NCBI GenBank assembly: GCA_021107945.1 | Contig: JAIORV010000160.1 | Span: 1 to 64,000, forward strand | Source: Vulcanimicrobiota bacterium | Lineage (GTDB): Bacteria > Vulcanimicrobiota > JAJTBE01 | DNA: 64,000 nucleotides | Direction of reading: 5' to 3' | Part shown: piece after piece, positions 3,305 through 29,781 of the stretch | Position numbering within the stretch: position 1 is the stretch's first letter | How the letters are laid out: each line of letters starts with the position of its first letter | Translations under genes and position numbers: made by a program | Notes under the pieces: model-generated | The model's database searches: none | What the model saw: only the letters and a program-made list of their open reading frames with translations | What the model was told of the DNA's origin: nothing

Positions 3305-5095
3305 TTATCCGTTTTCCTTTTCCTTTTCCTTCTCCCTCAGCTTCTCATCCATTTGTGGTTTTCTTTTGAAATAGTCTTTTGTCATTGTCAACACTACCCC
3401 GCTAAGACCCAGTACCCCGATCAGATTTGGGAATGCCATTAGTGCGTTGAAAACGTCGGATATATTCCATACCAGCTTTATCTGTAATGCGGCGCCAAGC
3501 GGGATTATCAATACATAAATCCAGCGATAAATGTTTACTGCCTTATGTCCCATTAAATATTCCGCTCCGCGGTCTCCGTAATATGACCAAGAGACCAGCG
3601 TTGAAAATGCGAAAAAGATGATTCCGAATGTGACAATATACTCGCCTATATAAGGGATGCCCTTTTCAAATGCGGTCATTGTCAGAACCGATGAGGTCTG
3701 GCCGTTGCTCCATACTCCGGTGGATATTATCACAAGCGCTGTCATTGTGCAGATGGTCAGGGTATCGATAAAGGGCCCCAACATTGCGACAAGTCCCTGT
3801 CTCACGGGCTCGTCGGTCTTCGCCGCCGAGTGGATGATAGGGGCGCTTCCCAATCCGGCCTCACTTGAGAAAAGTCCCCTGGCCACTCCATAACGGATGG
3901 TTGTCATAACTACTGACCCCACGAATCCACCGACCGCCGCTGTTGGGGTGAACGCATGGGTGAAAATCAATTTCAGGGCGTCATCCAGAACGTTGAAATG
4001 AGTTATGAGTACATAGAGAGCGCCGAGGACATATATGATACACATAAAAGGGACAACTTTCGAAGCAAATGCTCCGATTCGCTTTATACCACCTATTATT
4101 ACGACGGCGGTCAAAACCGCCAGTATCAGTCCGACTGCGAATTTAATCCACTTCTCGGTAGCGCCTGAAGCTATTGCATCCGGGTAGAGATCCTCCAGCA
4201 GAAGTCTGTTGAAGCATTGTATCTCCGCATCGGTAAGTTTCCTGATTCCCTTTTTCTTATAATAATCGGTCTTGTCCCCCAATTTCATTTCTTTGAAATT
4301 TTCTTCACTGTAGAATTCCTTATTTTCTATAACTTTGTTGAGTCCGCCCATAAGCAATAATTTTGATTTTCCGTCAATCTCCGTTTCAGGGGAACTCCTC
4401 TCAATAATCTCTTTGGACGCGGGATCCAGGAGGAGCCAAAGCCGCTCTTCGGCGGGGTTCTCGACTTTTCTCAATCCCTTTATCAATTCTTTCCAGCTTG
4501 AAACATCTTCCTGTTTAATGAGGGATGAGCCCTTGACCCTGGACATATATAAGCTTGCAACCGGTGCGGCGACAGAGTTTGCCTGCACCATGTTCCCGAT
4601 TCCAAAGGATGCGATAACCGTAAACAAGGCGAAAAGGAAGCCAAGCCATTTTTGTTTCAGACCAAGCTCCAGGTAGTACATGGGTCCGCCACTAACGACT
4701 CCGTCCTTGTCGATTACACGGAATTTCTGTGATAGAACTGAGCTTGCATATTTCAGAACCATGCCCACGATTCCAACCATCCACATCCAGAAGATAGCCC
4801 CCGGACCGCCTGTCGCTATTGCGGTGGCAACGCCCGCGATGTTTCCCGTTCCGATTGTCGCGGACAATGCCGCCGACAATGCCTGGAAAGGTGTTATTTC
4901 CCCCGGATGATCCGGATCGTCGTATTTGCCGCTGATCAATTCCACCGCGTGCTTGAATGCCCGGAACTGGAGTCCCTTGAGTATTATAGTATAATAAAGT
5001 CCCGCTCCCAGGAGTAGTATAATTGTAAATGGACCCCAGGCGAAGCTCTGAGCTTTTTCTACAAATTTTTCCAGTATGATGGTGAAATTTTGCAC
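3305..5095 (-). CDS. agcS: Sodium:alanine/glycine symporter (AgcS type) with inserted soluble domain
   Basis: 596 residues; typical family members have about 450-480. Family signatures are clear: ALSATIGTGNIAGVATAI (residues ~76-93), GPGAIFWMWMVGIVGM, NMVQANSVA, GGIKRIGAFASKVVPF and GLFSSEAGLGSAPI. It should import alanine or glycine with Na+ through an APC/LeuT-fold membrane domain. The extra length is one block, residues ~186-316 (nt 4148-4540), placed exactly where a short loop normally joins NMVQANSVA and the next helix. This block is soluble, charged and homologous to an insert in the GltS-type symporter at 27979-29781. Start is GTG at 5095 with a GAGAAGA-like ribosome site. The C-terminus is a charged tail. 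It appears monocistronic. Confidence 0.93.
   Translation of the reverse strand: MQNFTIILEKFVEKAQSFAWGPFTIILLLGAGLYYTIILKGLQFRAFKHAVELISGKYDDPDHPGEITPFQALSAALSATIGTGNIAGVATAIATGGPGAIFWMWMVGIVGMVLKYASSVLSQKFRVIDKDGVVSGGPMYYLELGLKQKWLGFLFALFTVIASFGIGNMVQANSVAAPVASLYMSRVKGSSLIKQEDVSSWKELIKGLRKVENPAEERLWLLLDPASKEIIERSSPETEIDGKSKLLLMGGLNKVIENKEFYSEENFKEMKLGDKTDYYKKKGIRKLTDAEIQCFNRLLLEDLYPDAIASGATEKWIKFAVGLILAVLTAVVIIGGIKRIGAFASKVVPFMCIIYVLGALYVLITHFNVLDDALKLIFTHAFTPTAAVGGFVGSVVMTTIRYGVARGLFSSEAGLGSAPIIHSAAKTDEPVRQGLVAMLGPFIDTLTICTMTALVIISTGVWSNGQTSSVLTMTAFEKGIPYIGEYIVTFGIIFFAFSTLVSWSYYGDRGAEYLMGHKAVNIYRWIYVLIIPLGAALQIKLVWNISDVFNALMAFPNLIGVLGLSGVVLTMTKDYFKRKPQMDEKLREKEKEKENG
4148..4540 (-). other. 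Inserted domain inside AgcS, shared with GltS-type symporter
   Basis: Residues ~186-316 of the symporter. Landmarks in order: GSSLIKQ, W-x2-LIKGLRKVENPAEERLW, LLLD, a short variable stretch, LLLMGGLNKVIENKEFY, NFKEMKL, and EIQCFNRLLLEDLYPDAIAS. The GltS-type protein has the same landmarks in the same order (GSSVIKQ; W-x2-LIQRIQKHEDPVNERIW; NLLD; ILVGLNAIISNRDFY; EVQKFNRLVLESVYPETLAT). It has no hydrophobic segment long enough to cross the membrane, so it should be a helical soluble domain on one face of the transporter. I do not recognise it as a named domain. Confidence 0.8.
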
Positions 5096-5112
5096 TTCAT
5101 CTTCTCGCTTTC

Positions 5113-5157
5113 GTTGTAGGCACTACATAAGGGGAGGTCTGAAGACCTCGTCTACGT
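5113..5157. repeat. REP-like GTAG-headed inverted unit (BIME-like)
   Basis: TTGTAGGCACTACATAAGG followed by GGAGGTCTGAAGACCTCGTC-TACG. The right part read on the minus strand is GTAG-ACGAGGTCTTCAGACCTC, that is a GTAG head followed by a GAGGTCT/AGACCTC hairpin. GTAG-headed hairpins are the hallmark of REP elements recognised by RAYT transposases. The remainder of the 296-bp spacer shows nothing else I can name. Confidence 0.5.
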
Positions 5158-5391
5158 ATTTGGACAGGAATTATATATAAGAATTATATATTAAGAAAAT
5201 TCGAATAAGTTTAAGATATTCCTTTTGTAAGTATTCAGTTCCCCGGCATCTCGTTGCGAAAATCGGGGGTTGAAGTTTCTCATGCAGGCTGAAGTCTGAA
5301 TAGTTTCTTCCTTTTGAGTATATTAAACAGGAAGGAAACCTCTCAATTAGAGCGAAATCAAGGGGTAAAATAACAACAGGGAGATTGCCGG

Positions 5392-6723
5392 ATGCCAAGA
5401 TCTGAAAGTCGAAAAATCGAGAATATATCGGATGATTACAAGGAATACCTGTCCCAGTTGCTTACATTGAGCCAGATGTTGAACTCCTCGCTGAAGCTTG
5501 ATGAAGTCCTTAATATGACCATGGACTTGGTTGTCGATTTCGTCAAGGCCGAGAGGGGCTTTATCATGCTTTACAATGAAGACGAAGAACTTGAGTTGAA
5601 AGCTTATGAGAATGTTGACCCAGACTTGATAAAAGAACACAAGGACATCAGTCACACTATATTAAACGCATCGGCGAAAGAGGGAAAAGATGTTCTTTCC
5701 GTGAACGCCCAGCGGGATCCCCGTTTCAAGAACCTGGAGTCTGTCATGCTCACGGGGATGCGCTCCGTAATGTCAGTACCACTGAAAGTCAAGGACAGAA
5801 TAATCGGGGTTGTCTATCTGGATAACAGAATCGAGGAGGGGATGTTCAAGGAAAGACACTTGAATATGCTTTCCGCATTCTCTAATCAGGCGGCGGTCGC
5901 CATCGACAACGCGAGGCTATATGAAAACCTGGTACGCTCTTATGACGAGCGGTTTGAGCTTATACACGAATTACACCAACAGGAAAAAATGCGACTTGCG
6001 AGCGAGGAAGCAAACCGATTGAAATCGGAATTTGTCTCCATAGTTTCCCACGAACTCAGAAGTCCCATGACTGTCATCAAGACATACACATCGGCACTTC
6101 ATATTGATGGAGCATCGGGCAAGAATTCAATATCAAAAGAACAGACATTTGATATATACAAGACTATTGATCAGGAAGTTGACAGACTTATCAGCATGAT
6201 AAACAAGATGCTTGATATATCCAGGATTGACGCGGGAAAACCTCTTAAAATGGATTGGAGGGAATGTGATATAATTCCTTTTATCAGGAATCTTTTAAAA
6301 ATTCAAAGAACTTCGAAATTTTATCGAAAAAAACACAGGATTATTGAAAATATCCCGTCAAATTTGCCAAAATTAAGATGTTCTCAGGAGGAGCTGTCCC
6401 AGATAATTTCGAACCTGGTGGAAAACGCGCTCAAATATTCTCCTGACGGTGGGGATGTAATAGTCTCCGTAAAAAGCGAGCCTGAATGGATAGTTTTCTC
6501 TATAAAAGATCAGGGTATGGGAATATCCGGGGAGAACCAGGAGAAGTTATTCAGGAAATTCGAGAGATTTGACAAAGGAAGCAAGAGAACAATACCCGGC
6601 ACAGGACTGGGATTGTACCTGATAAAAAACCTGATAGACCTTCATGGGGGAAATGTCCAGGTTAAAAGTAAGCTCGGCGAGGGAAGCGAGTTTATTGTCT
6701 CTATTCCCCGGGAGATTAAATAA
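5392..6723 (+). CDS. GAF-domain sensor histidine kinase
   Basis: 443 residues, no membrane segment. GAF domain at ~28-180 (MDLVVDFVKAERGFIMLY … MLSAFSNQAAVAIDNARLYENL), short coiled linker, HisKA with H220 in FVSIVSHELRSPMTVIK, then HATPase: N-box SNLVENALKYSPDG, G1 KDQGMGISGE, F-box LFRKFERF, G2 GTGLGLYL. It should autophosphorylate on H220 in response to a small ligand or a partner bound by the cytoplasmic GAF domain. It lacks a receiver domain and no response regulator gene is nearby, so its partner is encoded elsewhere. Start ATG at 5392 has AGGGAG upstream. It appears to be transcribed alone. Confidence 0.92.
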   Translation: MPRSESRKIENISDDYKEYLSQLLTLSQMLNSSLKLDEVLNMTMDLVVDFVKAERGFIMLYNEDEELELKAYENVDPDLIKEHKDISHTILNASAKEGKDVLSVNAQRDPRFKNLESVMLTGMRSVMSVPLKVKDRIIGVVYLDNRIEEGMFKERHLNMLSAFSNQAAVAIDNARLYENLVRSYDERFELIHELHQQEKMRLASEEANRLKSEFVSIVSHELRSPMTVIKTYTSALHIDGASGKNSISKEQTFDIYKTIDQEVDRLISMINKMLDISRIDAGKPLKMDWRECDIIPFIRNLLKIQRTSKFYRKKHRIIENIPSNLPKLRCSQEELSQIISNLVENALKYSPDGGDVIVSVKSEPEWIVFSIKDQGMGISGENQEKLFRKFERFDKGSKRTIPGTGLGLYLIKNLIDLHGGNVQVKSKLGEGSEFIVSIPREIK

Positions 6724-6780
6724 ACCCGGATGATGCTTTTTAATTCACCGCAGAGGACGCAGAGAGCGCAGAGAGTTTAT
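6722..6780 (-). repeat. Extended copy of the CTCTGCGGTGAA dispersed repeat
   Basis: On the minus strand it reads ...CTCTGCGGTGAATTAAAAAG then CATCATCCGGGTTTA. The extended part (TTTAAAAAGCATTATCCGGG-like) recurs at 10041-10060 and 40912-40931, which shows that some copies are longer elements and not only the CTCTGCGG core. Confidence 0.7.
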
Positions 6781-6921
6781 TACAAATCAGGATTTAATGT
6801 AAATTCTGCGCATAAATTTTCAGGTATTACCTGGCATAGATTTATACTTCCAACAACAGAATTCTTTCACCGAAATAAAGCTACAGAGCATTAATTACAG
6901 GATTAAAGAGGAGAATTTTAA

Positions 6922-8133
6922 ATGAATCCTTCCTGGAAACCAACCCATGCGGTATGGGAATTGACTTTACTTTGCAACATGCGCTGTCTTCACTGCGGGT
7001 CCTATGCGGGGTCCCCCAGAGATGACGAGCTTTCCATGGAGCGGGCACTCGATCTTGTGGATGAGCTTGTTGACCTGGGACTTCGAAGAATTACACTTTC
7101 CGGAGGAGAACCTCTTCTGAGAAAGGGATGGGAAATAATTGCAGAGAGGTTTATTAATAAAGGTGTAAGGACCGGGCTAATATCAAATGGATGGTTTATC
7201 GAAAAAAATCTCGAAAAAATAAAGTCCACAGGGAAATGGGATGTAATCGCTATGAGTCTTGACGGTCTGCGAAAAACCCACGATGCTTTCCGTCGCACCC
7301 CGGGTTCATTTGACAAGATCCTGTCTGCATACCGTGCCCTTGATAAAGCGGAAATCGAAACAGCCTGCATCACCTGTGTCTCCCGGCATAATTTTCACGA
7401 AATGGACACAATCCACGATATTCTTCTCACCCACGGAGTTCGATCCTGGCAGGTTCAACCTCTTTTTATCGGAGGACGCACGAGAGAGTATCAGAATATG
7501 ATGCTCGATATCGAGGAACTTTATGAGATAGCGAAGTTCATTGCAAGAAAGAAAAAGGTAAGCCCGATGAATATCTTCCCGGCGGATGGAGTGGGTTATT
7601 ATTCACGCTTCGATAAAGAAATCCGCCCCGAGGGATGGCCAGGTTGTCAGGCGGGACTCCGGGTTATAGGTATCGAGGCTAATGGAAATATCAAGGGATG
7701 CCTCTCTTTATACCCGGAATCACTAGCGGGGAATCCCTTTGTCGAGGGAAATGTCAAGGAGCAATCATTAAGAGAGATATGGGAAAATCCCGAAGCTTTT
7801 GCATATAACAGGAAGTTCGATCCGGAGAAAGCGGAGGGTTTCTGCAAGGAGTGCAGGCATCTCGAGAAATGTCGTTGCGGGTGCTCAGCCGAGGCGTTTT
7901 TCTTAACGGGGACGACGTATGACAATCCTTATTGCATACACAGGCATGTCTGTCTTCAAAGCGAGCCTGAATATAAGACAACTGTACCGATGACCGATGA
8001 GTTCAAAGAAAAGTCGGATAAATATTATAAAAAGAAAAAAGAAGAGAAAAAGAAGAAGAAATTACATCGCAATGCACCGGGAAAAACCGGACTGTCGGAA
8101 TATAGTCCGGCTCATATACAGGTATTCAGGTAA
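6922..8133 (+). CDS. Radical SAM protein with SPASM domain
   Basis: 403 residues. The SAM-cluster motif C18-x3-C22-x2-C25 (CNMRCLHC) sits near the N-terminus, with SAM-binding features SGGEPLLR and SLDGLRKTHD. The C-terminal SPASM/twitch domain supplies auxiliary Fe-S ligands (GCQAGL, KGCLSL, FCKECRHLEKCRCGC, PYCIHRHVC). SPASM enzymes modify peptides or protein side chains or act in cofactor maturation. No precursor peptide gene is evident nearby, so the substrate is unknown. The C-terminus carries a very basic KKKKEEKKKKK tail after residue ~365, unusual for the family. Start ATG at 6922 has AGAGGAG upstream. Downstream lies only repeat-rich spacer. Confidence 0.9.
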   Translation: MNPSWKPTHAVWELTLLCNMRCLHCGSYAGSPRDDELSMERALDLVDELVDLGLRRITLSGGEPLLRKGWEIIAERFINKGVRTGLISNGWFIEKNLEKIKSTGKWDVIAMSLDGLRKTHDAFRRTPGSFDKILSAYRALDKAEIETACITCVSRHNFHEMDTIHDILLTHGVRSWQVQPLFIGGRTREYQNMMLDIEELYEIAKFIARKKKVSPMNIFPADGVGYYSRFDKEIRPEGWPGCQAGLRVIGIEANGNIKGCLSLYPESLAGNPFVEGNVKEQSLREIWENPEAFAYNRKFDPEKAEGFCKECRHLEKCRCGCSAEAFFLTGTTYDNPYCIHRHVCLQSEPEYKTTVPMTDEFKEKSDKYYKKKKEEKKKKKLHRNAPGKTGLSEYSPAHIQVFR

Positions 8134-8246
8134 TATGGAAATTGGAATCGAGAGGCGAGAGACGAGAATATTTCTCGTTTCACATTTCCCACTTCCCACT
8201 TCCCACTTCCCACTTCCCGCCTCCATTTAGGAGATATTAATGTGTT

Positions 8247-8276
8247 TTCTCCGGTTATTCTCTGCGGTGAATAGTT
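8247..8276 (+). repeat. CTCTGCGGTGAA dispersed repeat copy
   Basis: CTCCGGTTATTCTCTGCGG-TGAATAGTTA. It directly abuts the mreD stop codon and its last bases overlap the end of that gene. The preceding bases 8183-8225 are a microrepeat of CACTTCCC units. Confidence 0.65.
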
Positions 8277-8817
8277 AATCTATCGTGTAACCCTTGTTCT
8301 TCGGCGAGACATCGAAATCTAACTCACGTCCCGGCGGTACTATAACATTTTTGCACATAAAAAAGACCGGGAGGGCGAAAATTGCATTCCAGATTAAAAA
8401 GACGGGAATTTTATATAAATCTGCAAAAGTAGGATAATAAATGTCCAGGAGTATCGCTACACCCGATAGGATAAGAGCGAACCCCGCCGATCCTATAACG
8501 GAGGAGAGGAGAGGCACAAGGAAATTGTCCGTTTCAACTTTTTCCGGCACTATTCCCGCCGCCAATCCCGCGAGGCAATAACCCAGGATGTATAATCCCC
8601 ACAGGTTCCATGAAACGATTCCCGTGATGATCCCCCCGATCAACCCCACAATAATCCCCTCACGATAACCCTTCAAAAGCCCGATTGAAATGACGAAAAG
8701 CAAGACAAGATCAGGCTTTATTCTCAACAGAATAAACTGGGGGAAGAATGACGTCTGCAAAAGCGCCATGACGGTTATTACCAATATATAAATAAGTATA
8801 GAAGCTTTTTTTCTCAT
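8275..8817 (-). CDS. mreD: Rod shape-determining protein MreD
   Basis: 180 residues, almost entirely hydrophobic with about five membrane helices (ILIYILVITVMALLQ, PDLVLLFVISIGLL, IIVGLIGGIITGIV, FLVPLLSSVIGSAGFALIL, IPVFLIWNAIFALPVFF). Family landmarks include the N-terminal TSFFPQFILLRIKPDLVLL and GYREGIIVGLIGG. MreD is the small membrane subunit of the elongasome that works with MreC and MreB to direct sidewall peptidoglycan synthesis. It follows mreC after 12 bp on the same strand. Length is usual (160-180). Confidence 0.9.
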   Translation of the reverse strand: MRKKASILIYILVITVMALLQTSFFPQFILLRIKPDLVLLFVISIGLLKGYREGIIVGLIGGIITGIVSWNLWGLYILGYCLAGLAAGIVPEKVETDNFLVPLLSSVIGSAGFALILSGVAILLDIYYPTFADLYKIPVFLIWNAIFALPVFFMCKNVIVPPGRELDFDVSPKNKGYTID

Positions 8818-8829
8818 AATATGATCCCA

Positions 8830-9636
8830 TTACTTTTTTTCCACAAGTAACACATATTCCAGGTTGTTGAAATGTACCGCCGCTTTGATCTGAACGGATT
8901 TGTAAAGAATATTTTCAACTCCGTATATTCTCGACACTTCGCCGATAATTTTTCCCGGCGGGTAAATTCTTGAAAGTCGCGATGTTATTATCTTGTCGCC
9001 CACCTTTACCTCGGCGTCAGCTTCGATATATTTCATGCGGCATGTATTTCTGCCCTCGCCATAGACCACTCCCAGCGCGCCGGAGGAAACGACCTGTGAG
9101 GGCACGGCGGATTTCTCGTTAAAAATAAGCCTTACTTTTGAAGTATATTTTGATACGGAAACAACTCTGCCCACGAGTCCCTCCGCCGATATTGCAACCA
9201 TATTCTTCTTTACGCCATGTTTGAATCCCTTATTTAGCTTGATGGATTGAAACCAGTTGTCGGGATTCCTGGCGATTACTTCAGCCGCAATTACCTTCCC
9301 TTTCTGATGTCGAGATATATCCAAAAGTTTGCGTAAAGTTTTATTTTCATCAATAGCCCGGTTATATTTTTCCTGTTCTTCCCGCAGAGCGTATATTTCA
9401 GTCTGGAGCTTCTTGTTACCCTCTTCAAGAGTGGCAATTTTTGTGAAGGATCTCCAGGTGCCGGATATACTCTTACCTACACCGGTAAAGAAGGATTGCA
9501 GGGGAACAAAAACAGTAGATGAAGCTTTTTCTACTTTATTGGCTTCACCTTTTTGATAAGTATCCCACTGAATAAGTATTGCCACAATACTTATCGCCAG
9601 GATAATTAATATAGCTATTACTTTTTTCTTCCCCAT
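8830..9636 (-). CDS. mreC: Rod shape-determining protein MreC
   Basis: 268 residues: one N-terminal membrane anchor (VIAILIILAISIVAILIQW), a coiled coil at ~65-105 (TLEEGNKKLQTEIYALREEQ) and two beta-rich extracytoplasmic domains with the family segments VIARNPDNWFQSIKLNKG, GLVGRVVSVS and YIEADAEVKVGDKIITS. MreC is the periplasmic scaffold linking MreB/MreD to penicillin-binding proteins. It is upstream of mreD in a two-gene unit and separated from mreB by a 436-bp repeat-containing spacer, a wider gap than in most mre operons. Confidence 0.93.
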   Translation of the reverse strand: MGKKKVIAILIILAISIVAILIQWDTYQKGEANKVEKASSTVFVPLQSFFTGVGKSISGTWRSFTKIATLEEGNKKLQTEIYALREEQEKYNRAIDENKTLRKLLDISRHQKGKVIAAEVIARNPDNWFQSIKLNKGFKHGVKKNMVAISAEGLVGRVVSVSKYTSKVRLIFNEKSAVPSQVVSSGALGVVYGEGRNTCRMKYIEADAEVKVGDKIITSRLSRIYPPGKIIGEVSRIYGVENILYKSVQIKAAVHFNNLEYVLLVEKK

Positions 9637-10072
9637 TAGTTAAACTGTCTCAAATAAATCCTGCCTATTTCTGTTGGTCTTATGCAGGAGTAGTTTTGCA
9701 GGAGCCTTTTTCCCAAAGGCGACTTGCTCCTTAACTTGATTTTAACATATGCTGCCTATTTCCTTTAACCTACTGCGGAAGAAGTATTTGGAAATAGTTT
9801 TGTAGGAGCCTTTTCTAAAAGCGATTCTTTCAGATAACATTTATTAATGGCATAATCGGGACACAATGATCGCGATTTTATTGAGATATTCGTTTCCCGG
9901 AAAACCAAAAACCTGCTATTTTTAAACGGTATCGTTTTTATCGCAGGTAAAAAATTATATCGGAGAATGCCTGAAATTTGATGCGTATAATTGGCAGTGA
10001 ACCCTCGTATATAATAGATTCTCTGCGCCCTCCGCGGTGAGTTTAAAAGCTTTATCCGGGTTTAAATGTTGT
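9637..10072. other. mreB-mreC spacer with REP-like and CTCTGCGG repeats
   Basis: No gene seen. It holds two REP-like GCAG/GTAG-headed hairpins (9692-9723, TTTGCAGGAGCCTTTTTCCC then AAAGGCGACT; 9802-9829, GTAGGAGCCTTTTCTAAAAG then CGAT) and an extended CTCTGCG repeat at 10017-10060. A short inverted stretch around 9928-9952 (CTGCTATTTTTAAACGG … GCAG) may also pair. Whether mreC has its own promoter here is not evident. Confidence 0.6.
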
Positions 10073-11122
10073 TTATCCCAGTCTCATTTCCTTCCCCATA
10101 AATACTCGTTTGAATAATTTTGGGCTTTTGAACAGTCTTTCGCACCCCAGCGCAACGCTTGAAATGGGATCCTCGGAATTCTTACAAAGAACCCCCGATG
10201 CTTTTGATAGAACCTCATCAAGGTGACGCAGGAGACTGCCTCCGCCGATAAGGGTAACTCCCTGCTCATAAATATCTGCTGACAATTCCGGCGGGGTTGT
10301 CTCGAGAGTTTGTTTTAAAAGCTCCACTAACAGTTGGACTATCTCCTGGAGAGCTCCGCATATTTCGTTGCTGTCAATCTCCAGTGAACGCGGAAGTCCG
10401 CCGGTGAGATCTCTTCCTCTAACAATTGCTGAATGAGTCACCTTTGTCTCCATAGCAGATCCTATGGATATCTTTAATTCCTCGGCGGTACGAATTCCGA
10501 TAAGTAAATTATATTTTTTCCTTACATAATTGAGAATCGCTTCATCCATTTCATCCCCGGCAATTCTTGAAGTGCGCGCCTGGACAATATCCCCCATGGA
10601 GGTAACCGCCATTTCGGATGTTCCGCCTCCGATATCAACAACCATGCTCCCCTGGGGTTGCATTATGGGAAGTCCCGCTCCAATCGCCCCGGCAAGCGGT
10701 TGCTCGATAATATAGACACGACGCGCGCCCGCCGCCTTAGCCGCCTCGGAAACCGCTCTCCATTCAACATCCGTCACATCGCTGGGCACGCCTATTATGA
10801 CTCTGGGCTTTATAACGCCGTCAACCTTCAGTTTTTTCAGAAGATGTTGAATCAACTCCTCCGCCACGTCAAAATCGGCAATCACACCGTCCTTGATTGG
10901 GCGGACAATCTCGATGTTTCCGGGAGTTCTCCCCACCATGTTGCGGGCCTCGGTCCCCACAGCGATTATCTTCTCTGTGTCAAGGTCCCGGGCGACGTAG
11001 GAAGGTTCAATAAGAACAATCCCCTTTCCCTTTACAAATATGGGAGTATTGGACGTGCCAAGGTCTATGCCCACATCCGCCGAGAAACTGCTTAATAAAT
11101 TGTCAAGGTATATGTATGACAT
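10073..11122 (-). CDS. mreB: Rod shape-determining actin homologue MreB
   Basis: 349 residues with the actin/Hsp70 nucleotide-binding signatures: phosphate 1 DVGIDLGTSNTPIFVKG (residues ~16-32), connect 1, phosphate 2 GSMVVDIGGGTSEMAV, adenosine motif GVTLIGGGSLLRHLDEVL. Family peptides IVRPIKDGVIADF, EQPLAGAIGAGLPI and RIAGDEMDEAI confirm MreB. It polymerises under the membrane and positions the elongasome. TSNTPIF replaces the more common TANTLVY at the phosphate loop, a mild divergence. It is upstream of mreC/mreD on the same strand. Confidence 0.97.
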   Translation of the reverse strand: MSYIYLDNLLSSFSADVGIDLGTSNTPIFVKGKGIVLIEPSYVARDLDTEKIIAVGTEARNMVGRTPGNIEIVRPIKDGVIADFDVAEELIQHLLKKLKVDGVIKPRVIIGVPSDVTDVEWRAVSEAAKAAGARRVYIIEQPLAGAIGAGLPIMQPQGSMVVDIGGGTSEMAVTSMGDIVQARTSRIAGDEMDEAILNYVRKKYNLLIGIRTAEELKISIGSAMETKVTHSAIVRGRDLTGGLPRSLEIDSNEICGALQEIVQLLVELLKQTLETTPPELSADIYEQGVTLIGGGSLLRHLDEVLSKASGVLCKNSEDPISSVALGCERLFKSPKLFKRVFMGKEMRLG

Positions 11123-11192
11123 GATTGGTTATGAGAGGTGAGAGGTGAGAAACGGGATCCGATTTCCGTTATCCGTTATCCGTTATCCGTTT

Positions 11193-11218
11193 ATCGGGAC
11201 GGGGACGTCCCTCCTACA
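11193..11218 (-). repeat. REP element, GTAG-headed class A
   Basis: On the minus strand: TGTAGGAGGGACGTCC then CCGTCCCGAT. GTAG head plus a GGGACG/CGTCCC hairpin, identical to the repeats flanking the RAYT genes at 39.1-39.8 and 58.4-59.1 kb. It lies between maf and mreB within a run of degenerate (GGGAAACGGGAT)-like microrepeats. Confidence 0.85.
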
Positions 11219-11260
11219 GTTTCAACCTCTGATCTCCGTCATCCGTTCTCCATTCTCCTA

Positions 11261-11878
11261 TCACGGATTCATCAAATTCACCCCGATTTTTTTTAACATC
11301 AGATAAAGCTTCATCAGGGGTAATCCCACGACATTGGGATAATCTCCTTTTATCGAATCCACCAGGAAAACACCGTATCCCTGGATCCCGTAAGCCCCCG
11401 CTTTATCTGTATATTCACCGGTTTTGACATAATTATCAATCTCCACCGGATCCAGTTTTCGAAATGTAACCTCTGTTTCTTCGAAATCTTCCATTAACCT
11501 TCCGCCGGGGAGAGATAAAAGTACCACCCCGGTAATAACCCGGTGAGTCCTGCCTGACAGCTTATTCAACATAATCCTTGCTTCTTTTTCACTTCCGGGT
11601 TTTGGAAGGAGGTGGTTGTCAATAACAACGATTGTGTCCGCCCCGATAAGCACAATTTCTTCATCTCCCTCATGACTCTGGGGAGATTTCTTGATTGTCG
11701 AGGCCGCTGCTCTCACTTTTTCAATAGCATTCTCGCAGGCAAGATGTCTGAAATCCGTGAGATCCCCTTCATGTTGATTTTTTTCATTAGTCGAAGTTAC
11801 CAAGATATCAAAGGGGACGTTAAACTTTTCCAGCATTTCCTTCCTGCGCGGTGAACCTGAAGCAAGTATGATTTTCAT
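11261..11878 (-). CDS. maf: Maf-family nucleoside triphosphate pyrophosphatase
   Basis: 205 residues starting MKIILASGSPRRKEML, the Maf phosphate-binding motif. Other family elements are ENAIEKVRAAA, IGADTIVVIDNHLLPKPGSEKEA, LSGRTHRVITGV, TEVTFRKL and the C-terminal AYGIQGYGVFLVDSIKGDYPNVVGLPL. Maf proteins hydrolyse non-canonical or canonical dNTP/NTP to the monophosphate and often sit beside mre genes, as here. I place the start at 11878, where the conserved N-terminus begins, and not at the upstream ATG at 11905. An insertion KKSPQSHEGDEEI before the DTIVV strand is slightly longer than usual. Confidence 0.93.
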   Translation of the reverse strand: MKIILASGSPRRKEMLEKFNVPFDILVTSTNEKNQHEGDLTDFRHLACENAIEKVRAAASTIKKSPQSHEGDEEIVLIGADTIVVIDNHLLPKPGSEKEARIMLNKLSGRTHRVITGVVLLSLPGGRLMEDFEETEVTFRKLDPVEIDNYVKTGEYTDKAGAYGIQGYGVFLVDSIKGDYPNVVGLPLMKLYLMLKKIGVNLMNP

Positions 11879-11932
11879 AGTTGGCTGATTATAACATAAG
11901 TGCATACCTTTGCCAAGTTTTATTCATGTTGT

Positions 11933-13180: not shown

Positions 13181-13593
13181 ATTAAAAAATCTCCTTAAAT
13201 TATATTTATATCATTATTATTCATCCTTGATTATACTTTTGCTGTCACAATTCAACTGAACCTCATCACAGGGACGTCATCCTGAACTTGCCTGCCCTGA
13301 ACTTGTTTCAGAGTTTCAGGATCTATTCATGATAATTTCAGGTTCAATTTAAAAAAACCTGTACTGAACTCGTTTCAGGAACCAATATTCGAAAAATCAT
13401 TAATTCCAGAAGAACGGAGGGTGCCCTCTTATCAGGAAAGGATATTATTCCCTCATACATAAAATATATATTCAGGTGATCCTGCTATTCATCCGGGTGA
13501 TCCTGCTATTCATCCGGGAGCATCAATAATTCTTAAAAAATTATCAAGTCATTACCTAAACATAATATTTTATCTTGGAAGGGAGTATGTACA
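13181..13593. other. Repeat-rich spacer with a 21-bp tandem duplication
   Basis: No gene seen. 13270-13330 carries the widespread TCATCCTGAACTTG/TTTCAGGATCT spacer repeat in degenerate form. At ~13475-13517 the 21-bp unit GTGATCCTGCTATTCATCCGG-like occurs twice in tandem. The end holds the ribosome-binding site GGAAGGGAG of the following peptidase gene. Confidence 0.6.
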
Positions 13594-14823: not shown

Positions 14824-14888
14824 AACATAATGCCGGAGGCAGATCTCCTTTATCTTTATATACATCTTTAATTATTGGTTATTTTCTG

Positions 14889-15027: not shown

Positions 15028-15105
15028 AAAAATGTCATCAAAGAACCTCCAGACTATCCCGACTGGACAAATGAAAAACCAGGCACAATATAAAGGAGAA
15101 AGATA

Positions 15106-16926: not shown

Positions 16927-16929
16927 AAA

Positions 16930-18596: not shown

Positions 18597-18882
18597 AGCA
18601 GCCTCCTCGATTGTTTGTTTATTATAGTACTTCCAATTAATTTTGTTCGAAAGCCCTGAATTCCCCCTCCATTTTTGGTTATATGTGTGAGGAAACAGAC
18701 ATTTATTTTTTTGATCTACGGCGAAACGCCACAGCCACCTATGTTGTTATAATGGTGGGGGTGGCGTCCCGCCGCCCAAATTACAAGACATTATTTTCGA
18801 AAAATAGCTAATACAAAATAAAAAGATATATAGGAATGAAGTTGAATAATATATAAAATCAAATAACCGGAGATAGGCCTTT

Positions 18883-22980: not shown

Positions 22981-23494
22981 GCTGTTTTAAAAGAAACGAA
23001 TTTATTCAGACCCCTCACTGTAGGAGAGCCTTCCAGGCTCGATTGTCGTGGCAAGATGCCACTCCTGCAAGAGGACTGAATACTCACAAAAAACATGTTG
23101 TTTTTAGCATTTATTCAGACCTCTCTTGTGGGAAGAACTCTACAATCTCGATTTTATGCCGTTTTCAGGCTGGTCGGGAGACCGACACATATCGAAGAAT
23201 TTCCTGAATGTTGTCCTGAGAGATCGCTATTCATGGATAGAGATCCTTCGCTGTGGAATAAATCGGAGAAATGTGAATCTCGTTCTTGAGAAAGGTTTGT
23301 TTGTTCAAGAAAATCGATCGTTTTCCGCTCAGGATGACAAAATGCGCAAGCCTTGTTATTGTGAACCTTTGTGGCCTTTGTAGTTAAAGACATCTTTGAA
23401 AACGAAAAAGTTTGATCCGAACAGATATGTATGTTTATTTAACAAAATCCCCGGTGGTATTTTTCAAAAGAATTAAACAACTATTCATTTATCT
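22981..23494. other. Repeat-rich spacer downstream of the NACHT gene
   Basis: No convincing gene. 23021-23069 is a BIME-like pair: GTAGGAGAGCCTTCCAGGCT-CGAT followed by the inverted TGTCGTGGCAAGATGCCACT-CCTGC, each with its own hairpin. 23111-23190 is a copy of an 80-bp repeat ending GGTCGGGAGACCG whose inverted partner lies at 33640-33720. 23195-23250 resembles the common TCCTGA…GGATCC spacer repeat, and 23361-23390 is a degenerate CTTTGTGG copy. Two short open frames here (near 23095-23383) are built from these repeats and are not credible genes. Confidence 0.65.
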
Positions 23495-24718
23495 CTAATA
23501 TTCATTTATCTTATTCATTGCCTCATCCCACTGTGTATCCTTGGCGAATTGGAGTTTTGGGTATCTCCAGTCCACCTTGTTCGAGTCGGGAATCTCGGCG
23601 TTTAGACCGTGAATGTTTCTCTTGAAGACTGAATGCTCCTCGGCTATTACTGCCCTTTTAACCGTTGTCATTACAAGCTTGCCGTATGCTTTTAACGTCT
23701 CGTCTTTTATGTCTTTACTTTCCGAGATTTGCTCGGCGAAATGGTAGAGGTCCTTGTAGCCGTAGAAACTTTTTGTCTTCTGGGCAATTTTTCTCAACAC
23801 TTCGTTGGGGGTATCGGTTTTTAATATCTGTTTTGCAAGTGAATTGCATGCATCTTTCAGGTTCGGCATTTTCGACAGATCGGTCGCTGAAATTGTGGAT
23901 ATTGCCCAGCTATCGCTCGCATCATCAACAATTTTCTTTGCAAGCGCTTCCGGTGAGATATCTAGCTTCTGCTTTAACGCGCCGTCCAGATTCTGGAGAT
24001 TTTTCTTTGTGAGGAGAGGAACATATGGCCATCCGTCTGCGCCCTCGTTGTTCTCGGAGGCGACCATGTATTTTGCGTTGTCTCTCAGCTCATACGCAAC
24101 CTCGGTTGAAGCCATGAGGCATGCATCGAATCCCAGGACATCGATCTGCCTGCCCGTATCTTTTTGTGCCAGATCCAGGCCTTCTTTTATCTGCGGCGTG
24201 GTCATGTCCCTATAATGGCCGTAGTCGGAAACCGCGCCCCTCCAGGCACCGCCATGATCAGATATAATAAGGGCATAATGCTCGGCGGGATATTTTTCCA
24301 TGCCAAATTTGATAAAATCTGCAAGCTCTTTGGGACTCGCCATGTTTGTACTGCCCATATCCTCGAGAACCGGGGATTTTATCTCGTCCATGTTATCGTC
24401 TTTTATAAGGTAATATCTCTTGCAATCTCTGTTCCCTTTATCCAGTTGGACAACAAGGTTCATATTGGCGGTTGAGCCTACCGATTCCATTTCGTTAACA
24501 TCACTTACCATATATGGCGTCAGGTTGTTATCACCGGCGGCATAATGAAGAATTGTCCACTTTTTAGGAGCTTTTGCATCTTTCCCGGAGTCAAGATCGA
24601 CGGAATCTTTGATTGTATGTTCTGATGTATTCTTTTCCGCGCTTTTTTCCGCATTTGACTTCGTTGATGACTGCGTCAATGCGTTTGTTGCACCGGGATT
24701 GATTCTTCCGATTGTCAT
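23495..24718 (-). CDS. Clostripain-family (C11) cysteine peptidase
   Basis: 407 residues from the chosen ATG at 24718 (GAGGGG 7 nt upstream; the frame is open further back but without a ribosome site). A low-complexity polar N-terminus (NALTQSSTKSNAEKSAEKN) precedes the C11 core: WTILHYAAGDNNLTPYMVSDVNEME, catalytic His in ALIISDHGGAW and catalytic Cys in DVLGFDACLMAS. C11 enzymes cut after Arg or Lys and may self-process. No signal peptide is visible although most relatives are exported, so the N-terminal tail may direct another route or the enzyme may be cytoplasmic. It is 121 bp downstream of the P-type ATPase gene on the same strand. Confidence 0.88.
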   Translation of the reverse strand: MTIGRINPGATNALTQSSTKSNAEKSAEKNTSEHTIKDSVDLDSGKDAKAPKKWTILHYAAGDNNLTPYMVSDVNEMESVGSTANMNLVVQLDKGNRDCKRYYLIKDDNMDEIKSPVLEDMGSTNMASPKELADFIKFGMEKYPAEHYALIISDHGGAWRGAVSDYGHYRDMTTPQIKEGLDLAQKDTGRQIDVLGFDACLMASTEVAYELRDNAKYMVASENNEGADGWPYVPLLTKKNLQNLDGALKQKLDISPEALAKKIVDDASDSWAISTISATDLSKMPNLKDACNSLAKQILKTDTPNEVLRKIAQKTKSFYGYKDLYHFAEQISESKDIKDETLKAYGKLVMTTVKRAVIAEEHSVFKRNIHGLNAEIPDSNKVDWRYPKLQFAKDTQWDEAMNKINEY

Positions 24719-24839
24719 GTTTCTTCCCCTCTCATTACGTTGAAAGAAATATATAGGTCTCTTTTCTTCTATAATTATAATTGAGTTAGTGGCCAAAAAC
24801 AATTAAAAACATGTTAACATATGGTAAAGAATATCGATG

Positions 24840-27470
24840 TCAGGATTTCTCCGGGGCTTTCGATTTTCTCTTGAACTTACTGAATATTTTCTCTTCCATC
24901 CATTCTTTATCTTTTTCATCAAGCTTGTCATAATTCTTCCATTTATCAAGATCCTCCGGTGTGCCGGGCAGGGTTACATTTAAATATTTATCTATTACCC
25001 GGGCTCTCCAGAAAAATCGAAGCACAATCGCCCACGCTATTGCTATAAGAATTACAACAAGATAATCAACAGGATGCCGCAGAAGTGTCAGTCCATAGAA
25101 ATTCCTCAACCCGGGCTTCACAAGGAAGAATATGAAGATAGCAAGCATTCCCGCGGATAGGATGGCGGGTTTCCAGTCATTATTAATTTCATCTCCTCCA
25201 CCCCAGAATTCCGTTGGCGGTTCTGCAAACACAATCAGGAGTAAGCCACAGAATACCGTCATATATGTTAGAGCGTGTTGAGCGTATTCAACATCGGGAA
25301 CGCCCATCTGAAAATTTGTCAACAGAAGGAAGAAAAGATATGTTAACAATCCCGCCGCGCTAAATGTAACAACCGCCGGTATAACAAAGTGCATCATCTT
25401 TTTTGTCATACTTCCCTTGCCAACTGCCCCGGGACGGGCCCAGAGCGCAAGGGCAAAGCAGGGAATCGACAAAGTCAGTATCGATATGATAGAACTTTGC
25501 TTTGGTGTGAAGGGAAAGCCTGCACCCAGGATGGATATTGCGGAAATAAGAAGTGTAAGGTAAAGAATCCTTGTCATGTAAAGCTTTAAAATATCCTTCA
25601 TCCCGTTTAATATTCTCTGTCCTTCCCTGAATGCCCGGGGAAGAGCCCGGAAGGAGTCGTTCAGCAATATAATCCCCGCAACGCTTCTTGTTGCCTGGCT
25701 TCCGCTTTGCATTGCAATTCCCAGGTTCGCCTGTTTGAGAGCAAGCACATCATTTACACCGTCGCCGGTCATTGCCACATAATGCCCCATAGCCCTGAGT
25801 GTCTTTACGATTCTCTCTTTTTGGTGCGGGACTATCCTGCCGAATATTGTCGTATTGTTAACAGTCTGCTTGAACTGCTCATCATCCATTTCCTTTAAGT
25901 CGGGTCCTGATATCATTTTCATAGGCTTGCCGTCTTTATCCAATCCTGCCTGCTTTGCAATGGCGGCAACTGTCACGGGATTATCGCCCGATATGATTTT
26001 GATCTGAATGCCGTCCTCTCTGAATTCCTTGAGGGTCCTCCTTGCATCACGTCGTATTTCGTCACTGAAGCAAAGAAGACATAAAGGAACGAGATCATCC
26101 GGCAACTCGGGTTTATCTTTCTCCACATAAAGGGATTTTAAATCGGGATGTATTGCGAAGAGCAAGACTCGAAATCCTTTGGAGGTCCAATTCTCGACCT
26201 GCTCATCGAGGTTTTCCGTCGGAGTTATATTTGATTTGAGCATCTCCGGCGCACCCAGGACAAACACACCATGAAGATCCTTGTTGTCAAACGATAGGGC
26301 GCTCCATTTTCTTGCCGATGAAAACGCTACTTCTTCATGAAATTCCATCTTCTCACCGTTACAAGCCCTTGCAATTGCATCGCTCGTGGGATTGCTTGCC
26401 GAGGAGCTCCGGGCATATACTCCCAGAATATTACGCAATTTATCTTCTGAAATGCCTGTATTCAAAACCCTCATATCGTTCATTTTTATTTTGTTTGTTG
26501 TCAGGGTCCCGGTCTTGTCAAGACACAGGACATCCACATTGCACAGAGATTCCACCGAGTTCGCCTGTTGAACCAACGCTCCCTTGTCGGCAATCCTGAC
26601 CGCTCCCATGGCATACGCTACGACAATCATTAAAAAGAGACTGCTCGGCGCAAGCCCGAATAGGACGGAGGCCATACGAACACTTTCCAGGAAAGAAACT
26701 TCATCAAGAATCGCCCTGAGTGTGAGGAGAATTCCAAAAAACAAAATTACCGCAAGGAGTATCCTTATTATAAGATCAATCTCTTTTTGAAGAGGTGTAT
26801 ATTCACGGGTGAATGTGCGTGCGTTTTTCGTCAGCTTGTTGGCGAAGCTTTCCGCCCCCACTTTTGTGGCCTCATACATTGTCTTTCCCGTAGCACAGAA
26901 ACTCCCCGACAGGACAGTGTCTCCCGCCTCTTTGGGAATGAGATCGCTCTCGCCGGTCAGAAGAGATTCATCAACATCTATCCTGCCGTGGCCGACAATC
27001 TTGCCGTCAACAAGAATCTGGTCGCCGGGACCTGCAATAACGATATCGCCCAGCACAATCTCGGATGGATCCGTCTTTTTTTCCTTGCCGTCCCTCATAA
27101 TCATAGCAAGGGGGCGCGTCAGAAGTGCAATCTGATCAAGCTTTTTCTTCGCCCTCACTTCCTGGACGATCGCAATGAAAACGTTGATGAATACAACGCC
27201 CGACGTTATTATTGCCTCGGTAGGTTTTCCCATGATGGCAAGGAGAAGCCCCAGGATGAATAAAACTATGTTGAAAAATGTAAATAGATTTTCCTTGAGG
27301 ATCTCTTTGTAAGATCTGCTTGTCTTGATCTTGATGTCATTTCCGTGTCCATCTTTTCTCCTCTTTTTAGCCTCAGCCTCGGTTAGGCCCTGTATCGGAG
27401 TGTCTCCATACGGGGAAGCATCTTCCTGCAGAATCTCTTTTGTTTCTTTGTTTTCTTCTTTTGTGTTCAT
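24840..27470 (-). CDS. P-type cation-transporting ATPase
   Basis: 876 residues. Actuator motif LLTGESDLIPKEAG, phosphorylation motif DVLCLDKTGTLTTNK, nucleotide domain SGDNPVTVAAIAKQAG and hinge MTGDGVNDVLALKQANLGIAM, with about ten membrane helices. It resembles the CtpE/MgtA-like branch of P2/P3-type pumps with a cytoplasmic N-terminus and no heavy-metal-binding domain. The ion-binding helix M4, where Ca2+ and Mg2+ pumps usually carry PEGL, reads GLAPSSLFLMIV here, so the transported ion is uncertain. The C-terminus is a charged ~60-residue tail. No Shine-Dalgarno is obvious at the ATG at 27470. Confidence 0.9.
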   Translation of the reverse strand: MNTKEENKETKEILQEDASPYGDTPIQGLTEAEAKKRRKDGHGNDIKIKTSRSYKEILKENLFTFFNIVLFILGLLLAIMGKPTEAIITSGVVFINVFIAIVQEVRAKKKLDQIALLTRPLAMIMRDGKEKKTDPSEIVLGDIVIAGPGDQILVDGKIVGHGRIDVDESLLTGESDLIPKEAGDTVLSGSFCATGKTMYEATKVGAESFANKLTKNARTFTREYTPLQKEIDLIIRILLAVILFFGILLTLRAILDEVSFLESVRMASVLFGLAPSSLFLMIVVAYAMGAVRIADKGALVQQANSVESLCNVDVLCLDKTGTLTTNKIKMNDMRVLNTGISEDKLRNILGVYARSSSASNPTSDAIARACNGEKMEFHEEVAFSSARKWSALSFDNKDLHGVFVLGAPEMLKSNITPTENLDEQVENWTSKGFRVLLFAIHPDLKSLYVEKDKPELPDDLVPLCLLCFSDEIRRDARRTLKEFREDGIQIKIISGDNPVTVAAIAKQAGLDKDGKPMKMISGPDLKEMDDEQFKQTVNNTTIFGRIVPHQKERIVKTLRAMGHYVAMTGDGVNDVLALKQANLGIAMQSGSQATRSVAGIILLNDSFRALPRAFREGQRILNGMKDILKLYMTRILYLTLLISAISILGAGFPFTPKQSSIISILTLSIPCFALALWARPGAVGKGSMTKKMMHFVIPAVVTFSAAGLLTYLFFLLLTNFQMGVPDVEYAQHALTYMTVFCGLLLIVFAEPPTEFWGGGDEINNDWKPAILSAGMLAIFIFFLVKPGLRNFYGLTLLRHPVDYLVVILIAIAWAIVLRFFWRARVIDKYLNVTLPGTPEDLDKWKNYDKLDEKDKEWMEEKIFSKFKRKSKAPEKS

Positions 27471-27978
27471 ATTACATTACTCGAATGTTGGTGACTGCAG
27501 CTTCTCGCCGCAGAAGAGATGATTCATTAATTATAAAAAGCTTATTTAACAAATATTAAATTTGAATTTGTGCTAACTTCCATGCCTCCAATCAAATTCC
27601 TCCAACAAGGAAAGCAGGAGGTTGGATGTCAGAACTGTAGGAGGGATGTCCCCATCCCGATAAACGTAGGCGGAGAAACGGATGTTTTTCACCACGAAGA
27701 CACGAAGGACACGGAGGACGGATCCTGTTCTAAAGATTAAAACTGCTAAACACACAATGTTTGAGGCGTCGTCCTGCCGCCTGGTTGAAAATCGGGTGTT
27801 ATATTAAAAATGTCATGAAATATTAGCTCATCGGGGGGAATCTGGGGTTGGGAATTGAACAAATATATAAAACAGTTTATTAATATGATGACTGAATACC
27901 GGTAAGCCCATTTGTCCGGAATACAACATTTTTCTGGGAATGACTCGAAATCACATACAAAACAAACCGGGAGGAATC
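27471..27978. other. Spacer with REP copy and CACGAAG repeat
   Basis: Divergent spacer between the P-type ATPase and the glutamate-type symporter. It contains a diverged class A REP at 27636-27661 (TGTAGGAGGGATGTCC then CCATCCCGAT), a CACCACGAAGACACGAAGG repeat at 27690-27720, and a GGCGTCGTCCTGCCGCC hairpin-like stretch near 27765 that resembles GGCGTCCCGCCGCCC at 18761-18775. Promoters for both genes must lie here but none is convincing by eye. The symporter's ribosome site is GGGAGG just before 27979. Confidence 0.6.
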
Positions 27979-29781
27979 ATGCAAGAATTAATAGACGGAT
28001 ACCTGAAATTCAATTCACTACCTATAAAGGGACTCATGGGATTTTTATTCAGTATATGCATTCTGTGTATTTTTCTTCTGGTCGGAAAATTGCTCAGGGT
28101 TAAAATCAAGTTATTTCAGAAGCTCTTCCTACCCTCGTCCATCATCGCGGGTTTTGTAGCGCTTATTATTGCAAACATATCATTTACCGGGTCTTCTGTT
28201 ATAAAACAAAACGAGATTCTCAACTGGCCGGTTCTAATTCAAAGAATACAAAAACATGAGGATCCCGTCAACGAGAGAATATGGAATCTCCTGGATACTA
28301 AAACACAGGCTCTTATCACCTCACTGAATCCAAAATCAGGAGACTCAACAAAAACCTATCTCGATGATGTCTCAAAGAAGACCATTCTTGTCGGATTAAA
28401 TGCCATTATTAGTAACCGGGATTTTTATCAGAATTCATTTGATGACAAACTCAAACTTCCAGCAAAATGTAATAAAATAAAGAATAAGGGAATGGCAAAT
28501 ATCAATGAGAAGGAAGTTCAAAAATTCAACAGGCTTGTTCTTGAATCTGTTTATCCAGAAACCCTGGCAACCTGCGATTATCGAATAGTTCCGAGTTGGA
28601 TAATGAAAGATTGGAAACCCCTGCCCGGCGTATTGATTAATATTGTATTCGCGTCCCTTTTCCTCGGTGTCGCATTGCCCAACTTAAAAACCCTATGGAA
28701 TTATGGCGGACCGCAGTTATGCTACGGCGTTGTCATGGGAATGGGACAGTATTTTATTGCCCTTCTGGTCACAGTACTTGTTCTGACTCCACTATTTCAC
28801 GTGCCCACAATATTTGCATGTATCGTGGAAATAGGATTCTCCGGGGGACACGGAACGGCGGCAGGAATGAGAGAGGTCTTTACAAAGCTCGGATTCCCCG
28901 CAGGCGGCGATCTGGGGCAAATGTCGGCGACCGTGGGGATCATATCGGCGGTTGTGTTTGGAATTATCCTTATCAACATTGCTATAAGAAAAGGATATTG
29001 TGCATGCCTCAACGAGAAGAAGGGAATTCCCACATATAAAAAGACCGGGCTTATCCCGGAGGCAAAAAGATTCTCTATCGCCACGGCGACAGTCGCCACG
29101 GAGGCAATTGAACCTCTGACATTTCATTTTGGAATAATCGCAATCGCAATTATTATCGGTTGGGTGATGTGGGTCGGCGTGAAAAATATTTCCCCGATTC
29201 TTGACAGTTTCCCACTATTTCCCCTGGCAATGATCGGCGGACTCATCGTACAAGCGATATCGGCATTCATGGGGATTGATAAGTATTACGACAGGGATAC
29301 ATTTGACAGAATCCTGGGATTCTCGCTGGATGTACTGGTTATATCGGCAATAGCGTCAATCAGGCTCGACCTTCTCCTTCAAAATATATGGCCGTTCCTC
29401 ATTATCATGTTTACCGGGATTTCCTGGGCTTTATTCTGTACCGTATTCCTCGCCCCGAGAATGTTCCCGAAGTACTGGTTCGAAAGAGGAATCACCGAAT
29501 ATGGGATGCAGACCGGCGTCACGGCAATCGGTCTCCTGCTCCTCAGGATCGTCGATCCCTTGTACAAGACCGGTACCGCCACAGCATTCGGATTCAAGCA
29601 GATGGTGTATGAGCCTTTCCTTGGAGGCGGTCTCATCACCGCCCTTGCGCCCATTATTGTGGTATCGCTGGGGAAATGGCCTTCTATAGGCGTCGCTTTT
29701 GCCATAATGCTGATATTTTTCTTTATTTCATACTTTAGTGGGTGGGTTAATTTCAAACCACATCTGAAGTTTGAGGATTGA
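27979..29781 (+). CDS. gltS: GltS-type sodium:glutamate symporter with inserted soluble domain
   Basis: 600 residues from the ATG at 27979 (GGGAGG upstream; an earlier in-frame ATG lacks a ribosome site). Typical GltS proteins have ~400-450. Family features: LFLPSSIIAGFVALI, LPGVLINIVFASLFLG, GVVMGMGQYFIALLVT, EIGFSGGHGTAAGMREVF and ITEYGMQTGVTAIGLLLLRIVDP. It should import glutamate or a related acid with Na+. The extra length is mainly one block, residues ~71-207 (nt 28189-28599), between the first helical hairpin and the W-x-PLPG helix. That block is homologous to the insert in the AgcS symporter at 3305-5095, although the two membrane domains are unrelated. No operon partner. Confidence 0.9.
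   Translation: MQELIDGYLKFNSLPIKGLMGFLFSICILCIFLLVGKLLRVKIKLFQKLFLPSSIIAGFVALIIANISFTGSSVIKQNEILNWPVLIQRIQKHEDPVNERIWNLLDTKTQALITSLNPKSGDSTKTYLDDVSKKTILVGLNAIISNRDFYQNSFDDKLKLPAKCNKIKNKGMANINEKEVQKFNRLVLESVYPETLATCDYRIVPSWIMKDWKPLPGVLINIVFASLFLGVALPNLKTLWNYGGPQLCYGVVMGMGQYFIALLVTVLVLTPLFHVPTIFACIVEIGFSGGHGTAAGMREVFTKLGFPAGGDLGQMSATVGIISAVVFGIILINIAIRKGYCACLNEKKGIPTYKKTGLIPEAKRFSIATATVATEAIEPLTFHFGIIAIAIIIGWVMWVGVKNISPILDSFPLFPLAMIGGLIVQAISAFMGIDKYYDRDTFDRILGFSLDVLVISAIASIRLDLLLQNIWPFLIIMFTGISWALFCTVFLAPRMFPKYWFERGITEYGMQTGVTAIGLLLLRIVDPLYKTGTATAFGFKQMVYEPFLGGGLITALAPIIVVSLGKWPSIGVAFAIMLIFFFISYFSGWVNFKPHLKFED
28189..28599 (+). other. Inserted domain inside GltS-type symporter, shared with AgcS
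   Basis: About 137 residues, hydrophilic, predicted helical. Matching landmarks with the AgcS insert: GSSVIKQ; NW-x2-LIQRIQKHEDPVNERIW; NLLD; KKTILVGLNAIISNRDFY; F-x7-L; EVQKFNRLVLESVYPETLA. Spacing between landmarks is nearly conserved; the main difference is a short extra stretch after NLLD. The ends coincide with the point where each transporter's normal alignment resumes, so the boundaries are sharp. Confidence 0.8.

Follow-up and report, generated by a model that had tools for sequence, protein, structure and literature searches.

A protein domain inserted in frame in many unrelated bacterial genes, and within its own copies, is a candidate mobile element

We examined a 64,000-nucleotide stretch of a Vulcanimicrobiota bacterium genome (the window, which opens contig 1 of an assembly of 5.56 Mb in 215 contigs), in which two unrelated Na+ symporters, of the AgcS and GltS types, are each interrupted by a copy of one domain. 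The same domain lies within or at the end of many other unrelated proteins of this genome, sits inside copies of itself, and occurs in at least three phyla. The best explanation, to which we give an even chance, is a guest domain whose DNA spreads as a cassette inserted in reading frame. The two hosts in the window and their guests are as follows.

3305..5095, minus strand: host gene 1, an interrupted AgcS-type Na+/alanine symporter of 596 aa; Pfam PF01235 (Na_Ala_symp) matches in two stretches (E 6.7e-136), and the AgcS structure 6cse aligns to the regions before and after the insert.
4166..4534, minus strand: guest domain copy 1, 123 aa, AgcS residues 188-310, in the loop at 6cse 181/189; matched to other copies by hidden Markov model (HMM) and BLAST; AlphaFold2 (AF2) model helical, pLDDT 90.3, pTM 0.84.
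27940..29781, plus strand: host gene 2, a divergent GltS-type symporter of 613 aa, broken after its second predicted membrane helix (hydropathy scan); Pfam PF03616 (Glt_symporter) matches in two stretches (E 9.7e-10).
28186..28572, plus strand: guest domain copy 2, about 127 aa with one 6-residue loop extension, GltS residues 83-211; 40% identical to copy 1; AF2 model pLDDT 85.5, pTM 0.80.

The initial annotation of the window had proposed that these two inserts are the same domain, and this is borne out: they share 40% identity (E 3.2e-23, scaled to one genome), the ordered landmark motifs that it quoted are readable in both translations, and the predicted main helices follow the same order. 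Our limits, 4166-4534 and 28186-28572, are slightly tighter than its 4148-4540 and 28189-28599. Its statement that the host family alignment resumes on both sides also held. Pfam found each host in two stretches and left the insert itself unrecognised (the GltS insert drew two sub-threshold Pfam matches, E 0.08 and 0.14, both at chance level), and 6cse covers AgcS residues 12-182 and 321-576, flanking the insert, with its own numbering near-continuous at 181/189. For GltS it is Pfam that supplies the empty site, since a sequence search found no PDB match and the 18 genomes of the phylum that were searched held no relative of the host. The weak Pfam score of GltS (27940-29781), 38 bits, follows from its interruption. 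No other copy was found in the window, where the remaining open reading frames (ORFs) gave E >= 0.4.

That the two insertion loops lie on the same face of the membrane, as the initial annotation expected, is only probable. The GltS loop is probably outward-facing, judging from the loop charge pattern, and the AgcS loop probably so from its position between the counterparts of LeuT helices TM3 and TM4, a loop that we take to be outward in AgcS topology. Charge pattern was unusable for AgcS, in which only 9 of 11 expected helices were detected. The window copies are a sister pair in one tree (97/81) and not in a second, which gave the grouping no support; we do not claim it.

Searching the window's own genome with one insert as query gave 34 places, and a profile of 31 copies gave 39 stretches at E <= 1e-5, only two of which had been noted before. 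Stretches should not be read as copies, since each nested copy (contigs 29 and 76) counts as two or three of them; by hand count of the list, the 39 fall in 33 ORFs. None of the 39 contains a stop codon, and the surrounding open frames run from 253 to 1711 aa. In a reversed-sequence control at E 1e-4, matches numbered 0/493, 0/502 and 0/117 among reversed ORFs versus 36, 37 and 10 among forward ones. Hosts in this genome that Pfam supports are:

Transporters: AgcS, GltS, NSS symporter, CNT nucleoside transporter, NhaC-type antiporter, EamA/SMR transporter.
Enzymes and ATPases: PFK, UvrD/PcrA helicase, AAA ATPase, PMT glycosyltransferase, a second PMT.
Kinases and regulators: GAF histidine kinase (two copies), NUDIX/NrtR regulator.
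Repeat proteins and others: TPR (two), ankyrin, propellers, PQQ/DUF6754, NACHT/HEAT, HD-GYP.

Several further hosts (the L018, L019, L026 and L011 proteins) gave no match to any Pfam family. Most hosts in this genome are broken internally; the copy is at an end in HD-GYP and NUDIX, and in the NhaC-type host it lies in an N-terminal extension, outside the antiporter domain. Five adjacent WD40-like propeller genes (L009:2725-14447) carry one copy each at a similar place, probably the result of one insertion followed by gene duplication. Two NACHT-type proteins (L012, G000:C6:1500-9000; L027, G000:C171) share an identical long stretch that includes the insert, the contig 171 insert being letter-for-letter identical to part of contig 6, while their N-termini differ; possible causes are a recent event (duplication or recombination) or a repeat in the assembly.

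Homologues that lack the insert mark clean sites of entry. In PFK it is absent, with the alignment otherwise continuous, from all 3 aligned homologues, and pyrophosphate PFK is continuous at residue 307. In UvrD it is absent from 8/8 aligned homologues (eight of the nine relatives possessing the gene, the fragmentary gene of G005 being excluded). A PcrA of known structure is continuous across the UvrD insertion site, at 546/550; since other PDB entries are separate chains there, the site is presumably an exposed loop. LeuT-type symporters are continuous at 225/224, and CNT at 291/298. Four distant AgcS homologues lack the insert, with a ragged border. FtsW, a host outside this genome, carries the insert behind its first membrane helix in two species of one genus (G716/G717); within one bacterial family, all 6 homologues with the region present are empty, one more is truncated, and one genome gave no match.

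Copies of the domain are also inserted in copies of the domain. In the NSS symporter of the window's genome (L022), the order along the protein is profile positions 6-46, a full copy, then 56-122; the outer halves, when joined, give one domain match (profile 6-122, E 1.6e-29). In the NhaC-type host (L023), positions 2-96 and 104-123 surround a full copy and likewise join into one match (2-123, E 8.9e-37). A PorV-family protein from another lineage is nested four deep, in the order N-halves A, D and B, a full copy C, and C-halves B, D and A. Joined halves span A 3-123, D 4-119, B 3-121 and C 6-121 in L125, and A 3-123, D 5-119, B 4-121 and C 9-119 in L131; in L128 they span A 4-123, B 3-122 and C 6-122, with D reaching only 4-71. 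Level D is the least certain, its N-half being weak alone (E 0.009-0.03) and cut points being chosen by hand. Such complementary halves in mirror order would not be expected from tandem duplication with deletions. An NSS symporter from another phylum (L122:1-1905) has a guest copy (5-55, 47-119) that some 51 unrelated residues split in turn, in the loop that is also broken in the guest copy of L022.

The domain is also found outside this genome. In its own phylum, copies were found in 3 of 149 genomes; one carrier, a metagenome-assembled genome taken to be 'Bacillota bacterium UR.bin48', has them in the C-terminal region of ClpC and in a TPR protein, and a further carrier has one in a clostripain-type peptidase. 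A mixed genome sample had 9 carriers in 388. Carriers made up 7 of 325 genomes in the phylum of G165 (three of them with partial matches only), all 10 in that of G277, and 22 of 386 among relatives of G714, a sample that overlaps the earlier ones. By hand count there are 30 distinct carriers, and each of them other than the window's genome has at most 8 stretches.

Hosts in these lineages include RpoB (NCBIfam equivalog, 1310 bits versus a cut-off of 801) and MraY (NCBIfam, 364 bits versus 192), together with FtsW, OadB beta (two), MFS, GntP, the PorV family, an OmpA domain and an alpha-2-macroglobulin-type (A2M) protein. LptE carries a copy at its end and signal peptidase at its start. An NSS symporter in another lineage has the insert in a different loop from the NSS of the window's genome, so that, within this family, the insert occupies one loop in one lineage and another loop in the other, a point in favour of spread by insertion. 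A CBM48-type host domain in three species was assigned by eye, Pfam finding only the second, uninterrupted module; an LptA-like host (L115), without a Pfam match, was likewise labelled by eye. One host (L058:1392-4585) has a clear copy and a much-decayed one, beside an IS1595-type transposase-like gene (3668-4585, minus strand; by eye).

The portable domain that the initial annotation saw spliced into two unrelated transporters is thus matched by many further hosts, in this genome and elsewhere. Its suggestion of a tie to amino-acid transport, through a ligand or a shared regulator, finds no support and we reject it: the hosts are unrelated, and since they range here from a DNA helicase and phosphofructokinase to histidine kinases and to ankyrin, TPR and propeller proteins, and include RpoB, MraY, FtsW and ClpC elsewhere, they have no common substrate, compartment or pathway.

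The AF2 model of the AgcS insert, made from four sequences, is a helical domain, and that of the GltS insert has the same main helices; the alignment for the latter left out the AgcS copy, although two UR.bin48 copies were common to both. Each model has exactly two bridge-state residues, 11 and 121 (AgcS) or 11 and 127 (GltS), near the ends of the domain. As the only two they must pair, so the models suggest a compact seven-helix domain with adjacent N and C ends. Inserted domains need close ends, according to PMC13114784.

As the initial annotation supposed, the insert belongs to no family that we could recognise. A PDB sequence search gave an unconvincing best E of 0.14. Pfam and NCBIfam scans of 31 members each matched one, to GerPC (E 0.0049) and chorismate mutase (E 0.0034) respectively, both at chance level. 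Fold searches gave best E of 6.0 and 2.2 with Foldseek and 3.1 with BFVD, and Z <= 2.2 with VIA-align against 52 chains; weak matches of this kind prove neither a distinct nor a new fold.

Selection among copies was assessed on 741 pairs from 39 near-full copies, 36 from the window's genome (including one duplicate) and 3 from two relatives. Mean amino-acid identity is 0.28. Identity at codon positions 1, 2 and 3 is 0.449, 0.588 and 0.327, versus 0.280, 0.303 and 0.262 by chance; because third positions are near-saturated while second positions are kept, selection has acted on the protein. The best-conserved positions are mostly core hydrophobics, with N66, N109, R110 and W14. This fits a demand for folding, and is also compatible with a binding site.

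For 21 pairs of orthologous hosts we compared the ratio of nonsynonymous to synonymous substitution rates (dN/dS) of insert and host. Insert and host values are 0.33 and 0.34 in OmpA, 0.22 and 0.15 in FtsW, and 0.03 and 0.07 in one CBM48 pair (dS about 2), with two further pairs not computable. PorV inserts have higher values than their hosts: 0.20–0.31 versus 0.07–0.14 in six pairs within one genus, 0.45–0.82 versus 0.21–0.30 in eight pairs between genera, and 0.59 versus 0.25 for L125-L126. The A2M-type pair has 0.99 versus 0.57. Constraint on the insert is thus equal to that on the host in some copies, relaxed in others (PorV), and absent in the A2M-like pair. In a tree, copies from the window's genome cluster (5 changes versus 17.6 when shuffled), with copies from G002 and G003 interspersed, as expected if the burst predates the split of these lineages or if copies crossed between them.

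In the mechanism that we favour, the spreading unit would be a stop-free stretch of ~370 bp encoding a self-folding seven-helix domain. DNA copies of this cassette would enter unrelated genes, and other copies, in reading frame. Where one landed in a surface loop, the guest would fold alone, and the host would close around it and keep its function; insertions elsewhere than in tolerated loops would be lost. After insertion, the guest would be selected to remain folded and harmless, and possibly also for a function. We infer that the hosts still work, and that DNA was copied, rather than rare gene fusions having been selected. We put at a little below even the chance that the folded domain is the moving unit of a mobile element of a new class. 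Such an element would jump in frame from gene to gene, from species to species and into copies of itself, and would survive by folding by itself with adjacent ends; its hosts RpoB, MraY, FtsW and UvrD would presumably still work.

Several results weigh against such spread. Copies at a protein end rather than mid-domain (HD-GYP, NUDIX, LptE, signal peptidase) are one. No two unrelated hosts hold near-identical copies: with the duplicated gene set aside, the closest pair is 51% identical and in paralogous hosts. Hence there is no sign of present movement. Copies on the same contig are not more alike (0.280 over 22 pairs versus 0.283 over 528, with five C101 propeller paralogues and one TPR pair excluded); without a distance effect, local copying along the contig was rejected. 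All 39 stretches of this genome lie within open frames (>= 253 aa), where purely selfish DNA should leave others outside, although a protein profile would miss decayed copies there. No terminal inverted repeat was found in 39 copies (end-to-end match 6.38 versus 6.50 in 312 mismatched pairs), although the copies are old and a former repeat could have decayed; a palindromic element was rejected on the same copies. They show no excess RNA structure (mean folding z -0.45). Flanking direct repeats were not found in 38 copies (5.68 versus 5.50 for mismatched pairs), a weak test given the age of the copies, and no target-site duplications were detected. No autonomous version, transposase or terminal signal of the insert was found. 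A phage or plasmid origin was tried with tests that are all weak: there was no match in plasmid and phage collections by one-copy tblastn, none of 101 pattern matches from one scan of viral contigs was confirmed, three PHROGs families came up, each with a single member (best E 9e-4 among 41 members), and PADLOC gave none. The missing DNA signals, young copies, copies outside open frames and distance effect are what an old burst would leave if its translated copies alone survived, and are just as much what one would see had there been no transposition.

The domain might instead be a useful accessory, all copies binding one partner or ligand (a scaffold, a protease adaptor or a small signal), and selection adding it to proteins so that they are gathered or controlled together. 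Protein-level constraint across copies, the lack of stops, near-invariant polar N66, N109 and R110 along with W14, and inserts about as constrained as their hosts in OmpA and FtsW agree with this, but its hosts have neither a pathway nor a compartment in common (helicase and PFK in the cytosol, propellers that are secreted, transporter loops that probably face outwards), copies within copies are hard to explain by shared binding, and, within one genus, the PorV inserts are under relaxed constraint, with those of the A2M-like pair under none. We consider this possible but doubtful. Ordinary domain shuffling over a long time, by rare fusions, tandem duplications and deletions with no special mobility, and with the high count here due to drift in a large permissive genome, would account for the missing DNA signature of transposition, the age of all copies, the terminal positions and the few carriers in the own phylum. 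We nonetheless hold it unlikely, because of the nesting, with its complementary halves in the order N-N-N-full-C-C-C, and because of mid-fold insertions in slow-evolving enzymes (UvrD, PFK, RpoB, MraY and FtsW); the three of these that were aligned show clean empty sites. Least probable, and hardly to be expected, is an element excised after translation or from RNA, as inteins and introns are, by an unfamiliar chemistry: the essential hosts RpoB, MraY and FtsW resemble those of removable elements, but the model is all-helical, the alignments lack Cys/Ser...His-Asn ends, no Hint-type Pfam match was found, and the protein sequence is constrained.

If in-frame spread of a guest domain is correct, genes can acquire a parasite, or an enrichment, in the form of a folded protein domain, with dozens of unrelated hosts left unbroken. 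The question of how domains enter other domains would become directly testable, nature would supply examples of where RNA polymerase and cell-wall and division enzymes tolerate insertions, and protein engineering would gain a ready-made insertion module. There is also a warning for annotation, as interrupted hosts such as GltS score weakly in Pfam.

A full-text literature search, whose coverage left out most subscription papers and preprints, found no published description of the domain. We rate it as outside the known kinds of element, its mobility being our inference. Inteins in their mini form have about 120-150 residues and sit in frame in essential genes. The insert resembles them in size, in-frame position and essential hosts, but differs in its helical model and in lacking splice-site residues (a catalytic Cys/Ser start and His-Asn end) and a Pfam intein or Hint match; we rejected this identity on those grounds. 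Rickettsia palindromic elements (RPE), the nearest precedent, and similar elements of Wolbachia also lie in frame in many unrelated conserved protein genes and are tolerated by the host (PMC2229807). RPE are palindromes of 105-146 bp with terminal inverted repeats, also found between genes and in RNA genes, according to the same paper, whereas our insert is ~370 bp long (a 123-residue profile), lacks palindrome and terminal repeat, is predicted to be a folded domain, was not found outside open frames, occurs in several phyla and nests in itself. Palindromic amphipathic repeat coding elements (PARCEL) are likewise protein-coding, scattered among distant microbes and suspected of moving from gene to gene; as described in PMC2996958, they consist of a motif of 25 residues that shows dyad symmetry and is arrayed in tandem, unlike the single globular unit of ~123 residues, without dyad symmetry, seen here. 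The insertion-consistent families of ECOD are likewise compact domains with close ends, in an A1-B-A2 arrangement, for which nesting as A1-B1-C-B2-A2 is known among different families (PMC13114784). Those families, as described there, have set partners; here a single family occupies dozens of unrelated hosts, and itself.

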